Assembly (NCBI GenBank): GCA_900472295.1
Contig: UCIA01000002.1
Location: 496,001-560,000, forward strand
Source: Hyphomicrobiales bacterium
GTDB lineage: Bacteria > Pseudomonadota > Alphaproteobacteria > Rhizobiales > Rhizobiaceae
Direction of reading: 5' to 3'
Length of the DNA stretch: 64,000 nucleotides
In this document: positions 37,829-44,084 of the stretch, piece by piece
Layout of the letters: the number at the start of each line of letters is the position of its first letter
How positions within the stretch are numbered: the first letter of the stretch is position 1
The notes under the pieces: generated by a model
Told to the model about the DNA's origin: nothing
The model's database searches: none
The model's input: the letters and a program-made list of their open reading frames with translations, nothing else
Translations under genes and position numbers: made by a program

Positions 37829-38734
37829 TCAGCGGCCGACGCGTGGCGAGGGATCGGCGGGCAACGCCTGCTCTCGCAACCACTCCCACGTCCCCCGCAC
37901 ATCGACATCCCGAAGCCGATCCTGCGTGGAAATTGCGTACCATCCGCGCCCGGCATCAAGCTCGTGCTCGAATGGCTGTACCAGGCTCACTGAATCAAGC
38001 GCCGCTGCCGCCAAGACCAAGCTGCCCAGCGCCACGCCCTGGCCGTGTTCGGCAGCCGCGAGCGCCAGGTCGCTGTCGCTGAAATTGGTGCCGTGCCAGG
38101 TGCCGGTCGGCTCGACACCGGCGCTGCGCAGCCAGTCGGCCCAGCCGGTCGGGCGTTCGTCATGGATGAGCGACGCGCCGAGCAGGTCGGCGGGCGTGTG
38201 GAGCGTGCCGGCCAATTCCTTCGTCGCGACCGGTGATAGAAAATCCCTGGCGATCAGCAGGCTTTCGCAGCCTTCGGGCGGCGCGTCGGCGTAGACGATT
38301 GCGAGGTCGAGTTCCATGGTTTCGAAATCGACTGATGCACCGCTGGTGTCGAGCCACGGCTCGCAGGCCGGCACGGCCGCCCGCAGGGATGGCAGGCGAT
38401 TGAGCAGCCAGCGCCGGCTGAAATCGCGCGGCGCGTAGATCACGACGCTGCCGGGCTTGCGATAGGGCTCCAGTCGCCGGTACCCCTCCTCCAGAAGCTC
38501 GAGGCAGCGGCGCACGGTGCGCTGATAGTCGCGGCCGGCATCGGTCAGCCGCACCTCGCGGCCGAAGCGCATGAACAGAGGCTGGCCGATATGGCCTTCG
38601 AGCAGGCGCATCTGGTGACTGATCGCCGACTGGGAGAGACCGAGTTCTTCTGCGGCGCGGCTAAAGCTTTCCAGGCGCGAGGCGGCCTCAAACCCCTTCA
38701 GGAATTGTGTTGGCGGAATATGCCGGAACTTCAT
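37829..38734 (-). CDS. LysR-type regulator divergent from the agmatine operon
   Basis: The 301-residue regulator has an N-terminal helix-turn-helix (FLKGFEAASRLESFSRAAEELGLSQSAISHQ) of the GcvA-like branch and a type 2 periplasmic-binding-fold effector domain. It is divergent from the aguA gene, so it probably controls the agmatine/putrescine operon in response to a pathway compound. The first ATG is at 38734; a GTG at 38737 directly precedes it. Repeat copy 3 lies just after the stop. Confidence 0.88.
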   Translation of the reverse strand: MKFRHIPPTQFLKGFEAASRLESFSRAAEELGLSQSAISHQMRLLEGHIGQPLFMRFGREVRLTDAGRDYQRTVRRCLELLEEGYRRLEPYRKPGSVVIYAPRDFSRRWLLNRLPSLRAAVPACEPWLDTSGASVDFETMELDLAIVYADAPPEGCESLLIARDFLSPVATKELAGTLHTPADLLGASLIHDERPTGWADWLRSAGVEPTGTWHGTNFSDSDLALAAAEHGQGVALGSLVLAAAALDSVSLVQPFEHELDAGRGWYAISTQDRLRDVDVRGTWEWLREQALPADPSPRVGR

Positions 38735-38832
38735 CACTCATGAATTCCATTCACTGAATCAGGGAATCCTTCTCAGTTGTACGGCTGCCTCAGCCGATTA
38801 ACAATGAGTTCAGTACATGAATGGAGAATTTG
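38735..38832. promoter_or_regulatory. Divergent promoter/operator between LysR gene and aguA
   Basis: The 98-bp interval contains the dyad ATTCACTGAAT at 38749-38759, close to the LysR start, in an A/T-rich stretch. LysR-type regulators bind such imperfect dyads in divergent promoters. The GGAG at 38823-38826 is the ribosome-binding site that selects the aguA ATG at 38833. Confidence 0.5.
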
Positions 38833-39855
38833 ATGAACGCCATCGAATGGCCGGCGCAGCAGTTGAAGATCCGCCGGCCCGCCGAGTTCGAGCCGCATGC
38901 CAGGACATGGATGGCCTGGCCGCATCGGCGCGACATGTATGGCGCCACGCTGCCCGCCATGCAAAAGGCCTATGCCGATGTCGCCCATGCCATCGCCCAG
39001 TTCGAGCCGGTCACCATGGTGGCGCATCCCGATCATGCCGGCGGCGCCCGCGCACAGCTTGGGCTCGGTATCGAAGTCGTGGAAATCCCGATCGACGATT
39101 GCTGGATCCGCGATTCCGGCCCGACCTTCCTGAAACTCGCAGATGGCAGCCTTGCCGGCGTGTCCTGGCGCTTCAATGCCTGGGGCCGCAAGCATGAGCC
39201 CTATGACCAGGACAATGCGCTGGCCGAACGGCTGCTCACGCGGGAAGAAGCCCTCATTTTACGCTCCTTCCTGCATTGCGAAGGCGGCTCGCTGACCACC
39301 GACGGGCAAGGCACGCTGATCGCCACCGAAACCAGTCTGCTCCATTCCAACCGCAACCCCGGCATCTCCAAGACCTGGGTGGAGAAGGAACTGTTGCGCA
39401 TGCTCGGCCTGGAAAAAGTTGTGTGGCTTCCCGGCGATCCGCTGGATCTGGAAACCGACGGCCATATCGACGGCATGTGCTGTTTCGTCCGCCCCGGCGT
39501 GGTGATGTTCGAGTACAATCCCGATCCGTCCGACCTGCACGGCCGCATCCTTGCCGACAATCTTGCCGCACTTGCCAGCCAGACCGATGCGCGCGGCCGC
39601 AGCTTTGAAGTCATCCCCATCCCCGAGGCCTATGATGTCGAGGCGACGAGCGCAGTGTTTGCCCGCTCCTACATCAATTTCGCGCTCGCCAATGGCGGCG
39701 TCGTCATGCCGGATTTTGGGCACCCGTCCGGCGAGGAGGCCAAAGCGGCCGTCGCCCTTGCCTTCCCGGACCGACGCATCGTCACCGTCGATGTCGGCGC
39801 GGTTGTGCCGGCTGGCGGCGCCATCCACTGCATCACCCAGGAACAGCCGGTGTGA
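38833..39855 (+). CDS. aguA: Agmatine deiminase (cytosolic copy)
   Basis: The 340-residue protein belongs to the peptidyl-arginine-deiminase-like fold and hydrolyses agmatine to N-carbamoylputrescine and ammonia. Motifs include PHARTWMAWP, DDCWIRDSGPTF (about 91), HCEGG (about 148), DGHIDG (about 209) and the catalytic Cys in IHCITQEQP (about 332). The ATG at 38833 has GGAG 6 nt upstream, while an upstream ATG at 38821 is inside this site. No signal peptide is present. It is the first gene of the polyamine operon. Confidence 0.93.
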   Translation: MNAIEWPAQQLKIRRPAEFEPHARTWMAWPHRRDMYGATLPAMQKAYADVAHAIAQFEPVTMVAHPDHAGGARAQLGLGIEVVEIPIDDCWIRDSGPTFLKLADGSLAGVSWRFNAWGRKHEPYDQDNALAERLLTREEALILRSFLHCEGGSLTTDGQGTLIATETSLLHSNRNPGISKTWVEKELLRMLGLEKVVWLPGDPLDLETDGHIDGMCCFVRPGVVMFEYNPDPSDLHGRILADNLAALASQTDARGRSFEVIPIPEAYDVEATSAVFARSYINFALANGGVVMPDFGHPSGEEAKAAVALAFPDRRIVTVDVGAVVPAGGAIHCITQEQPV

Positions 39856-40952
39856 CGAGGACATCATGGACACGACGTCACGCCATTTTGGCAGCATCGG
39901 GGTTAGCGCTCATGCCTGAGATCGCGATCAAGGCAGTCAGGGCCGAAAGCTGGAAGGTCACCGCGCCATCCGAGGCCGAGCCGCATGCCAGGACCTGGAT
40001 GGCCTGGCCAAGCACGCCGGCGGTCTATGGCGGACCGGGCGCCTATTACGAGAGCGTGCAGGAAACGCTGGGCCGGCTGGCCGCGGCGATCGCCGAGAAC
40101 GAGCGTGTGGCGATGGCCGCCTCCGCGGATCAGCACGAGTTGGCGGCAAAGCTTTGCGGTCCAAAGGTCGAACTCGTCGACATCGAGACCGACGACATGT
40201 GGATGCGCGATTCCGGCCCGGTGTTCGTGCGCGCCGAGACTGGCGCCATTGCCCCCGTCGACTTCCGCTTCAACGGCTGGGGCGACAAGCAGGCGCATGC
40301 CAGCGATGCCGGGATCGCCGGCAAGGTCGCGCAGCACCTCGGCGCGACCCGCCATGTCGCTGCAATCCGCGGCGAAGGCGGCGGCATCGAATATGACGGC
40401 GACGGCACCTTGCTTCTGGCCGAAAGCTGCTGGGTCAACGACAACCGCAATCCGGGTCTTTCGCGCGCCGATATCGAGCGGCATCTGAAGACCATACTCG
40501 GCGTCGAGACTGTGATCTGGGTTCCCGGCGTGCGCGGCCTCGACATTACCGATGGCCATATCGATGGCTCGCTGCGCTTCGTCAAACCGGGCCTGCTCAT
40601 CGCCAGCAGCATGACCGGCGACACTTCCGAATGGGGTCGCGCTCATGCAGAGGCGCTTGCCATGTTGGCCAAGTCCAGGGATGCGCGTGGGCGTGGCTTC
40701 GAGATTGTTTCGATCCCCGCCGCCGCCGACGTGCGTTCGACCAGCGACGAGTTTCTGACCAGCTACGCCAATTACTACATCGGCAACGGCGCGCTCTACA
40801 CGCCGCAGTTCGGCGACAAGAAGGCCGATGCTTTTGCCCGGGAAACCCTTGGCCGGCTGCACCCGGACCGCCGCATCGTCGAGCTCGACATGGACCGCAT
40901 CTACGAGAATGGCGGCGGCATCCATTGCGTCACCCAACAGCAACCCTTGTGA
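39852..40952 (+). CDS. Agmatine deiminase paralogue with twin-arginine signal
   Basis: The 366-residue paralogue keeps the active-site blocks PHARTWMAWP, MWMRDSGPVF, GEGGG, DGHIDG and the catalytic Cys in IHCVTQQQP (about 359). The N-terminus is an added segment with TRRHAIL at about 7-13, a hydrophobic core, and a VRAES cleavage-like site near 31, as in Tat signals. The GTG at 39852 overlaps the upstream stop and has AGGAA about 8 nt before it, supporting this start. I infer export to the periplasm by Tat. The gene is coupled to aguA. Confidence 0.85.
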   Translation: MTRTSWTRRHAILAASGLALMPEIAIKAVRAESWKVTAPSEAEPHARTWMAWPSTPAVYGGPGAYYESVQETLGRLAAAIAENERVAMAASADQHELAAKLCGPKVELVDIETDDMWMRDSGPVFVRAETGAIAPVDFRFNGWGDKQAHASDAGIAGKVAQHLGATRHVAAIRGEGGGIEYDGDGTLLLAESCWVNDNRNPGLSRADIERHLKTILGVETVIWVPGVRGLDITDGHIDGSLRFVKPGLLIASSMTGDTSEWGRAHAEALAMLAKSRDARGRGFEIVSIPAAADVRSTSDEFLTSYANYYIGNGALYTPQFGDKKADAFARETLGRLHPDRRIVELDMDRIYENGGGIHCVTQQQPL

Positions 40953-40960
40953 GGTGAGCC

Positions 40961-41851
40961 ATGCGCCAACTGATCGCCGCCGCTGTCCAGATCGCTTGCA
41001 CTGATCAAGTAGGGAGCAATCTCGACAAGCTCGAAAATCATGTCCGCGAAGCTGCACGGCGCGGCGCCGGACTTGTCGTGCTGCAGGAGTTGTTCGAGGG
41101 CGTCTATTTCTGCATGGACGACGATATCAGGCACAACAGCCGCGCCCTACCCCTCGATGGCCACAAGACCATCGCCCGGATGGCCGCGCTGGCGCGCGAA
41201 ACGGGCGTCGTTTTGCCGGTCTCGCTGTTCGAACGCGACGGATCGCGACTGTACAACACGCTGGTCATGATCGACGCCGACGGCAAGGTGCTCGGCCACT
41301 ACCGCAAGAGCCATATTCCAAATAGTCCGGGCTATTCCGAAAAGCTCTATTTCGCCGATGGCGACACCGGCTTCCGCATTTTCGAAACCGCCGCCGGCAA
41401 GATCGGCGCCGGTGTCTGCTGGGATCAGTGGTTTCCCGAAGCGGCGCGGGCCATGGTGCTCATGGGCGCCGAAGTGCTGATCTATCCCACCGCCATCGGC
41501 TCTGAGCCGTCCTTTCGCGGCTGGGATTCGCGCGACCATTGGCAGCGCGTCATGCAAGGCCATGCCGGCGCCAATCTGACCCCGGTCATCGCCGCCAACC
41601 GGGTTGGAGTCGAGACCGGCGAAGCCAACGAGATCGTCTTCTATGGCTCGTCCTTCATCGCCGATCACACCGGCGCCAAGCTGGCGGAAGCCGACCGCGT
41701 CTCCGACAGCGTGATCACGGCGGCACTCGACCTCGACGAGATCGCTGCCGTAAGACGCAGCTGGGGCGTGTTCCGCGACCGGCGCCCCGAACTCTACGGC
41801 GTGCTGCTGGAGCCGACGCCGGAGCGCCTGCTCGCCAAAAATGCAGCCTGA
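40961..41851 (+). CDS. aguB: N-carbamoylputrescine amidase
   Basis: This 296-residue nitrilase-superfamily enzyme converts N-carbamoylputrescine to putrescine, CO2 and ammonia. The Glu-Lys-Cys triad is present in LQELFEG (about 45), HYRKSHIP (about 117) and GVCWDQWFPE (about 152). It follows the second deiminase by 8 bp, and completes the agmatine-to-putrescine pathway. GAGG precedes the ATG. No signal peptide is seen, so the amidase is cytosolic. Confidence 0.93.
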   Translation: MRQLIAAAVQIACTDQVGSNLDKLENHVREAARRGAGLVVLQELFEGVYFCMDDDIRHNSRALPLDGHKTIARMAALARETGVVLPVSLFERDGSRLYNTLVMIDADGKVLGHYRKSHIPNSPGYSEKLYFADGDTGFRIFETAAGKIGAGVCWDQWFPEAARAMVLMGAEVLIYPTAIGSEPSFRGWDSRDHWQRVMQGHAGANLTPVIAANRVGVETGEANEIVFYGSSFIADHTGAKLAEADRVSDSVITAALDLDEIAAVRRSWGVFRDRRPELYGVLLEPTPERLLAKNAA

Positions 41852-41889: not shown

Positions 41890-42975
41890 ATGAAATATTG
41901 GCTCGCGCTTGCCGCGGCGTGCCTTTTTGCGACCTCGGCCCAGGCCGAGGAAAAAATCCTGCATCTCTATTCCTGGGAGTCCTATTTCGGGCCCGGCACC
42001 ATCGAAAAATTCGAGGCCGAGAGCGGCATCAAGATCACCTACGACATGTTCGATTCCAACGACATCGTCGAAACCAAACTGCTCACCGGCGGTTCGGGCT
42101 ACGACCTCGTCACCATCAACCTCGCGCCGCATCTGCAACGCGAATTGCCGGTCGGCGTCTGGGCTGCGCTGGACAAGAGCCGGCTTTCCAACCTCGGCAA
42201 TATCGAGCCGGCGGTCGCCGCCCGTCTTGATGAGGTCGACAAGGGCGGCGCACATGGCGTGCCGTGGATGTGGGGAACGACGGGCGTCGGCTACAACGTC
42301 GAAAAAATCCACGCGATCATGCCCGATGCCCCGGTCGACTCGCTGCGCATGCTGTTCGACCCGGAGATCGCCGCCAAATTTGCACCTTGCGGCATCACCA
42401 TGCTCGACGATGCCGAGCAGGTTCTAGGCCTGGCGCTGATCTATCTCGGGCTCGACCCGGACACGACCATTCCCAAGGAATTGCAAAAGGCGGTGGACGT
42501 GGTTGCGAAGGTTCGCCCTTACGTGCGCAAGTTCCACAGCTCGAGCTACATCAACGACCTCGCCGAAGGCGATGCCTGCCTGTCGCTCGGCTTCTCCGGC
42601 GACATGCACATAGCCGACATCAGGGCCAAGGAAGCGAAGCGGCCGTTCAGCATCACCTACCGCCTGTCGAAGGAAGGCAATTTGGTCTGGGCCGACATAT
42701 TGGCGATCCCGGCTGACGCCCCGCATCCGGAAGCCGCGCACGCGTTCATCGATTTTGTCTTGCGTCCGGAAATCGCCGCCTCGGCGGCTACTGACACCGG
42801 CTTCTCGACCGCGAACAAGGCAGCACTTCCGCTGCTTGACGAGAAACTGCGCGCGGACGCCAATCTTTACCCCTCGGAGGAAGCCCAGAAGCGCCTGCAT
42901 CTGCCGAAAGCACTCGACCAGAAGTCGCTCAGAATGTGGTCGAAAGCCTGGGACCGCGCCAAGGGGTTGGAGTAG
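41890..42975 (+). CDS. PotF/PotD-like polyamine-binding protein
   Basis: The 361-residue protein has a signal peptide (cleavage after SAQA) and the periplasmic binding fold of the spermidine/putrescine family, including LHLYSWESYFGPGTIEKFE and YDLVTINLAPHLQRELPVG. It lies 38 bp after aguB with GGGAGGA before the ATG, so it is probably in the same operon. It could capture agmatine, N-carbamoylputrescine or putrescine in the periplasm. No permease or ATPase gene follows, so it must use a transporter encoded elsewhere, or act as a sensor. Confidence 0.85.
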   Translation: MKYWLALAAACLFATSAQAEEKILHLYSWESYFGPGTIEKFEAESGIKITYDMFDSNDIVETKLLTGGSGYDLVTINLAPHLQRELPVGVWAALDKSRLSNLGNIEPAVAARLDEVDKGGAHGVPWMWGTTGVGYNVEKIHAIMPDAPVDSLRMLFDPEIAAKFAPCGITMLDDAEQVLGLALIYLGLDPDTTIPKELQKAVDVVAKVRPYVRKFHSSSYINDLAEGDACLSLGFSGDMHIADIRAKEAKRPFSITYRLSKEGNLVWADILAIPADAPHPEAAHAFIDFVLRPEIAASAATDTGFSTANKAALPLLDEKLRADANLYPSEEAQKRLHLPKALDQKSLRMWSKAWDRAKGLE

Positions 42976-43118: not shown

Positions 43119-44084
43119 GTGAACGGGGAGTGGCCACTATTGACGCGCTATAGGAAATTTATCCTACATTGCGGAATTCACAAGACTGGAAGCTCTTATC
43201 TTCAGGCGAGCCTGGCTTCCAACCGAGATCTGTTGGCGGCCAATTCGATCCACTACCCCGAACCCATAGACCCGGCGAATGAAGCGTTCGGGCCGCAGCA
43301 CAGCATCGCGGCAATCGGTTACGACGACGGCAAGTCGTTTGAGCAGAACGTTGGCGCGTTCTTCGCACTCGATTCCGACTGTGAAACGTTGCTGATGTCA
43401 GGCGAGGAGTTTTCGCGAGCAAGCGCTCATCCCTCTTTCTTTCAAGGCCTGTTGGATGTTGGCGCCGAGGTGACGGTGGTGTTTTACCTCAGGCGCTTCG
43501 ATCACTTGCTTGAGAGCGTGTATTCGCAAGGCGTCAAAGATTACCTGACAGGCCCTATCGAAGTCGCGGAATATCAGCTTGATTTCTACGAAACCCTGCG
43601 ACCGTTTGTTGCCGCGCTCGGTGCCGATCGTGTTGTCGTTCGACCATACAACCCCAAATTTTGGCCCAGCGAATCGATCGGTCAGGATTTCTTCTCTGCG
43701 ATTGGCTTGCCTCATCTCTGGGGCTCCATGAGAAAGCCGGCCGGCCGGATCAACGAAAGCCTGTCACGGCCGGAAACATACATGCTTTCAGTCACTGAAG
43801 GCATCGCTGAAAAGCAGCGCTTGATGGACCACTTCCGTGCCCTGCCTTTCCCGGAGCGCGGCAGGGCTAAATTCTTCCGGTCACCCGATTCTCGCTTTGA
43901 CTTCAACCTGAAATATATGGGTTTGAACTCAGGCGTCGCCGCCCTCAATGGCGGGGTGGACATCACAGAGTTTCTCGATCTGGCCAACGTCGATGATGAT
44001 CCACATTGGCAAGCGTTCGACCCGAACGACCGTCAGATTGACGATTATCTCGAGATCTTCAGGACCCAGGCATTCGTGAATTAG
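43119..44084 (+). CDS. Sulfotransferase-like P-loop protein
   Basis: The 321-residue protein begins with FILHCGIHKTGSSYLQASL, the 5'-phosphosulfate-binding loop of PAPS sulfotransferases and related NTPase-fold proteins, and has a 3'-phosphate-type segment near VTVVFYLRRFDHLLESV. It may sulfate a polysaccharide or small molecule. The start is uncertain: GTG at 43119 or TTG at 43140, the latter with GGGGAG about 9 nt upstream. By eye its base composition is more A/T-rich than its neighbours, which suggests acquisition. Confidence 0.65.
   Translation: MNGEWPLLTRYRKFILHCGIHKTGSSYLQASLASNRDLLAANSIHYPEPIDPANEAFGPQHSIAAIGYDDGKSFEQNVGAFFALDSDCETLLMSGEEFSRASAHPSFFQGLLDVGAEVTVVFYLRRFDHLLESVYSQGVKDYLTGPIEVAEYQLDFYETLRPFVAALGADRVVVRPYNPKFWPSESIGQDFFSAIGLPHLWGSMRKPAGRINESLSRPETYMLSVTEGIAEKQRLMDHFRALPFPERGRAKFFRSPDSRFDFNLKYMGLNSGVAALNGGVDITEFLDLANVDDDPHWQAFDPNDRQIDDYLEIFRTQAFVN

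Follow-up and report, generated by a model that had tools for sequence, protein, structure and literature searches.

Why should a bacterium carry two overlapping genes for agmatine deiminase-like enzymes, with an export signal on only one of the two proteins? The pair lies in the window, by which we mean the whole 64,000-nucleotide stretch of DNA analyzed here. The first-pass annotation described a tandem overlapping deiminase pair with a PotF-like binding protein in the same operon, and this description holds: both enzymes belong to PF04371, their reading frames share 4 bases (the stop of the first, A, and the start of the second, A'), and the binding protein gene, C, lies two genes downstream of A'. 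We read the locus as probably a Mesorhizobium version of an agu2-type operon for the use of external agmatine, made up of a LysR regulator, A, a Tat-exported A', AguB and C. Its features are as follows.

37829–38737, minus strand: LysR-family regulator, GcvA-like, divergent (PF00126 and PF03466; best NCBIfam NF008352 at 224.4 bits, missing the cut-off of 288).
38738–38820, no strand: 83-base gap between the divergent regulator and A, probably the promoter region from its coordinates.
38821–39855, plus strand: A, deiminase lacking an export signal, 344 aa, presumed cytoplasmic (PF04371, E 2e-104; TIGR03380 304.3 bits, missing the cut-off of 381.8).
39839–39842, plus strand: possible ribosome binding site AGGA, 9 nt 5' of the GTG, by reading of the sequence.
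39852–40952, plus strand: A', deiminase with twin-arginine signal, 366 aa, GTG start (PF04371, E 1.4e-99; TIGR03380 247.7 bits, under cut-off; AlphaFold2 mean pLDDT 88.1; nearest folds agmatine deiminases).
39852–39944, plus strand: A' signal peptide, residues 1–31, with RR at 39873–39878 and the cleavage-like site VRA/ES (orthologue comparison, dN/dS; AlphaFold2 pLDDT under 50 at residues 1–4 and 17–30).
40926–40928, plus strand: codon of the A' nucleophile Cys359, equivalent to Cys366 of Medicago AIH (alignment; Cys in 99/99 A' rows).
40961–41851, plus strand: aguB, N-carbamoylputrescine amidase (TIGR03381 425.9 bits, over the cut-off of 410.25).
41890–42975, plus strand: C, PotF/SpuD-like binding protein, 361 aa (NF007962 324.5 bits for a longer reading frame, under the cut-off of 636; SpuD 3ttm, E 2.7e-95).

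The A' protein starts with MTRTSWTRRHAILAASGLALMPEIAIKAVRA/ES, the slash marking the cleavage-like site, ends with GGGIHCVTQQQPL, and exceeds the PF04371 (PAD_porph) gathering cut-off (333.8 bits vs 25 bits). There is no permease gene within the operon. For a 321-aa reading frame 3' of the operon (43119–44084), neither Pfam nor NCBIfam gives a match up to E 0.1.

The RRHAI of A' matches the TatP default expression, RR.[FGAVML][LITMVF] (PMC1182353, in excerpt). The N-terminus has the features of a Tat substrate that the first-pass annotation had pointed out, namely the RR motif, a moderate hydrophobic stretch and an A.A-like cleavage site (V-R-A); the motif lacks the Phe of the usual S/T-RRxFLK, which counts against an agu2-type reading. 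The AlphaFold2 model of A' has a pTM of 0.86. The proposed comparison with other Mesorhizobium homologues finds the RR and hydrophobic stretch kept in nine of ten A' orthologues, the window's included, one of the nine (RRHII) missing the strict TatP expression. In the tenth, the A' frame lacks the RR and a related reading sits in another frame, so that its signal looks frame-shifted, while the enzyme domain is open. Among the nine, the RR codons vary synonymously, and dN/dS is 0.28 for the n/h part, 0.80 for the c part and 0.14 for the mature enzyme (36 pairs; our own script, with few codons and pairs that are not independent). By this comparison of sequences the RR and h part are under purifying selection, the behavior of a translated, selected signal peptide.

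Translation could instead start downstream of the RR, perhaps at the ATG of residue 21, leaving A' in the cytoplasm. The start codon itself gives some cause for this: among the 8 other readable Mesorhizobium orthologues the ATG lies 10–12 nt past the A stop in six, 26 nt past it in one and overlaps it in one, and the position aligned with this ATG in seven of the eight is ACG in the window, where the GTG that overlaps the A stop lies one codon further 5'. Such an overlapping GTG is, however, also found outside the genus, in Sinorhizobium RAC02 and a Shinella-type genome, AGGA precedes the window GTG at 9 nt, and the selection on the RR and h part in nine orthologues speaks for their translation; a late start is thus very improbable.

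Across the wider sample the signal, as called by our own rule (the TatP expression plus an 11-residue hydrophobic stretch), is present in 108 of 142 A'-type but in 2 of 57 A-type ORFs, types being assigned by the better BLAST match to window A' or window A. This sample includes the best 80 of 520 loci from a contig scan and over-represents A', since A' was the query. The counts cover 199 of 243 A-like ORFs: we removed 22 duplicate loci manually and excluded every ORF whose alignment spanned less than 220 residues (3 such ORFs over all loci); six duplicate pairs of loci were left in. A like, not identical, rule was passed by 316 of 20,000 shuffles of the A' N-terminus and by 21 of 592 other long ORFs. 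The genome has one match to TatC (235.6 bits). The P. aeruginosa counterpart, Agu2A' (PA14_48450), is an experimentally identified Tat substrate (PMC6085387, in excerpt, citing Williams et al. 2010), and an agmatine-metabolism protein is counted among periplasmic Tat substrates (PMC4899797, in excerpt). Because the signal is conserved and selected, TatC is present and the counterpart is a Tat substrate, export is well supported by sequence: the signal peptide is almost certainly real, and A' is very probably exported by Tat.

What would the exported enzyme act upon? The equivalents of Medicago AIH Asp94, Glu162, His224, Asp226, Cys366, Trp91 and Trp125, i.e. the guanidine ligands, channel tryptophans and nucleophile, are present in all 99 A' rows of a 120-row alignment, which bears out the earlier remark that the second deiminase keeps its active-site Cys. 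Agmatine deiminases are the nearest solved structures to A' in both sequence and fold (6NIB at 36% identity, TM 0.82). We rejected A' as a peptidylarginine deiminase, since the Porphyromonas enzyme (~19–21% identity, TM 0.71) ranks below them by fold. Both window enzymes miss the TIGR03380 equivalog cut-off, which counts against an agu2-type reading, but P. aeruginosa Agu2A (302.8 bits) and Agu2A' (245.6 bits) score like A and A' and miss it by almost the same margins.

The missed cut-off could also mean that exported A' has another guanidino compound as its real substrate (another amine, a guanidino acid or an arginine residue), widening what the operon uses or removes. A' rows differ from A rows at seven positions (G142, Q147, E180, I232, R242, D322, D348), and I232 aligns with Asp220 of plant AIH, which holds the agmatine amine (PMC6447857, in excerpt). 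At position 220, I, V or L occurs in 98/99 A' rows and E in 12/21 A rows, a further point against the agu2-type reading. The argument from I232 to a changed substrate is weakened by an acid at 219 or 220 in every A' row (99/99, and 17/21 A rows), and P. aeruginosa Agu2A itself has no acid at 220. AguB, which takes the product of agmatine, is encoded in the same operon, and the fold ranking favors agmatine deiminases over the peptidylarginine enzyme. We regard another substrate as unlikely. From its residues and fold, agmatine is the likely substrate of A', and a plausible one in the periplasm.

The genome has two PF04371 genes. SpeA has four partial matches and none over cut-off (best 53.9 of 624.1 bits), and neither OKR_DC_1 nor the pyruvoyl arginine decarboxylase (PvlArgDC) has a match in the genome. 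With the three arginine decarboxylase families absent over cut-off, we rejected internal agmatine as the input; outside agmatine is the probable one, and the operon most likely handles agmatine from outside.

The genus is, most probably, Mesorhizobium, judging by the close A' matches. Within it, A' at 78% identity or more is found in 10 of 146 genomes, the window's included, the nine others at 78–89%; among the matches listed (best 80 of 520 loci), five records titled Mesorhizobium carry A' at 78–85%. By our reading of gene neighborhoods, the order is LysR-A-A'-B-C in the window and nine Mesorhizobium loci, and LysR-A-B-C-A' in 12 loci. In three same-genus genomes an intact A is followed by remnants of A' before the next gene. 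Two of them retain about 45 codons from the 5' end, with the signal; the third has about 70 codons and then the 3' end of aguB. In three related genomes the order is LysR-A-C, and the 12–13 kb read contains no A' and no aguB.

These genomes bear on the binding protein. Each of the PotF pocket residues W37, D39, E185, D247, R254 and D278 is conserved in 96% or more of PotF homologues (PMC8666671, in excerpt). C fails this pattern, keeping W37, D247, R254 and D278 while D39 and E185 are replaced. All 18 C proteins of the Mesorhizobium/Shinella/Sinorhizobium clade keep the same four residues and share the changes S38 to E, D39 to S, A182 to D, E185 to Q and W244 to F. Among the 12 A'-last operons, the six of P. 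aeruginosa, Aeromonas and relatives keep D39, E185, D247 and D278 with R254 changed to A or S; in the other six, from Paraburkholderia, Aquitalea and relatives, E185 is T or A, D247 is A and R254 is K.

The first-pass annotation had coupled periplasmic deimination by an exported enzyme to import of the product, captured by the PotF-like protein. Export has the sequence support given above; capture fared worse. The idea is that A' makes periplasmic N-carbamoylputrescine, which C captures for import to AguB, and the unusual pocket lends itself to it, both in the 18 C proteins that have lost the D39 and E185 acids and in the other lineage, with its six operons altered at E185 and D247, as fewer pocket acids could suit a neutral ureido end. 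Yet new acids appear at 38 and 182, so the pocket charge may only have moved, and the P. aeruginosa lineage keeps D39, E185, D247 and D278 despite having A'. Above all, the same pocket is found in the three Mesorhizobium genomes with decayed A' and the three related genomes without an adjacent A', and the operon has no permease. Since six of the 18 C loci lack a working A', the binding protein goes with A and not with A', and the loss of E185 was rejected as support for product capture. C fits uptake for the cytoplasmic enzyme A better, and its capture of the A' product is quite unlikely. C might share the permease of a potFGHI-like set elsewhere in the genome, in which each protein is under its equivalog cut-off and the ATPase is over the TIGR01187 cut-off.

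Other pairings of deiminase and transporter occur. (i) Other Mesorhizobium genomes (L052–L066) have a different pair: the deiminase is about 40% like A, and its PotF-like neighbor has N at position 276 and retains the acids of the pocket. (ii) On a Phyllobacterium plasmid and in a relative, a deiminase with a Tat signal lies directly 5' of a complete ABC transporter (ATPase, two permeases and binding protein); there are thus exported deiminases encoded next to an importer of their own.

Several lines lead us to the agu2-type reading: the same genes as agu2ABCA', the like TIGR03380 scores, the signal evidence, the catalytic residues, the agmatine-deiminase folds, AguB over its cut-off, TatC, and the lack of SpeA, OKR_DC_1 and PvlArgDC matches over cut-off. 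In the scheme we propose, C would bind agmatine from the surroundings, with import through a permease encoded elsewhere; A would turn the imported agmatine to N-carbamoylputrescine, from which AguB would make putrescine. A' would be an accessory enzyme that performs the first step on the periplasmic side, where it would yield N-carbamoylputrescine and ammonia and reduce the agmatine outside, and so would either begin catabolism before uptake or strip agmatine from the surroundings. Import and use of the A' product is possible, though on balance we lean against it. That only remnants of A' are left in three same-genus genomes makes A' dispensable, and this counts against the agu2-type reading, as do the missing permease gene and the two orthologues whose signal looks frame-shifted or falls outside the TatP expression.

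Perhaps A' serves mainly to remove outside agmatine as a signal or toxicant, and not as a feeding step. An accessory gene that is gained and lost would suit such a role, but A' shares its operon with AguB and a binding protein, which together make up a catabolic set, and we know of no corresponding phenotype in rhizobia. Such a role has been suggested for biofilm control in P. aeruginosa, where agu2ABCA' responds to environmental agmatine and, without the operon, agmatine appeared to inhibit biofilm (PMC4211729, in excerpt). Taken together, a role chiefly in removal is somewhat improbable, and we retain external agmatine use as the main reading.

A tree of the deiminase domains alone (120 rows, quick method), labeled for signals by the strict or loose version of our rule, has one branch of full SH-aLRT support that divides 99 rows (85 with signal) from 21 rows (20 without); the whole tree has 16 label changes. 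The 14 rows without a signal on the 99-row side comprise five with a Tat-like signal upstream of the rule's limit, one truncated at a contig end, the Mesorhizobium orthologue with the apparent frameshift, and seven in which none was seen. With quick trees, and with groups named after the tree was seen, a single clade was rejected both for all operon-linked A' (15 rows, p 2.3e-5) and for the Mesorhizobium and P. aeruginosa-type A' (11 rows, p 0.0067). Such operons thus seem to have acquired an exported deiminase on at least two occasions.

The tree suggests that the export signal marks one large clade of the deiminase family, in which case the substrate question for exported enzymes could be asked once for many phyla. 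With 85 of the 99 rows on its side bearing a signal by the rules and five more on reading, we tentatively consider a broader scenario, itself rather unlikely: exported deiminases may form an old, separate, phylum-crossing Tat clade whose own substrate is not simply agmatine, recruited at least twice by agmatine operons as an outside module, the Mesorhizobium operon being one case.

Tat-type signals are also seen on agmatine-deiminase-like proteins in four Streptomyces loci, two Okeania loci and a Chloroflexi MAG. Several such signals in Actinobacteria, Cyanobacteria and Chloroflexi have GC after the hydrophobic part and look like those of lipoproteins. Seven loci have two or three adjacent A'-type genes, mostly each with a signal.

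The exported-deiminase operon is not a new kind of system. Expression of agu2ABCA' in P. aeruginosa is induced by agmatine. In the P. aeruginosa record LysR diverges from A, which is followed by aguB, a PotF-like gene and A', i.e. the agu2ABCA' genes, an operon also treated in PMC4287709 (in excerpt). The two systems have in common the divergent LysR, a cytoplasmic deiminase, AguB, a PotF-like protein and a deiminase with a Tat signal. They differ in gene order, A-B-C-A' in P. aeruginosa vs A-A'-B-C in the window, which we do not take as essential; in their A' proteins, which fall in different supported groups of the tree; and in their binding-protein pockets, the P. aeruginosa lineage keeping the D39 and E185 that window C replaces. 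The plant and bacterial agmatine deiminases (AIH, TIGR03380) share fold and catalytic residues with A', whereas A' is under the equivalog cut-off and has residues of its own; to our knowledge those enzymes carry no export signal. The Porphyromonas enzyme PPAD is exported, and has the pentein fold and the Pfam name in common with A', but is a weaker match than 6NIB. The present locus takes the exported-deiminase operon beyond the one pathogen in which it has been studied, to root-associated bacteria of the soil, in whose surroundings outside agmatine is a plausible nutrient or signal. What is new here, with no claim that rhizobial cases are unpublished, is the differently ordered rhizobial version, the evidence for at least two entries of an exported deiminase into such operons and for its decay in three of the genomes sampled, and the tree, where nearly all signal-bearing proteins, whatever their phylum, share one side of a single branch.
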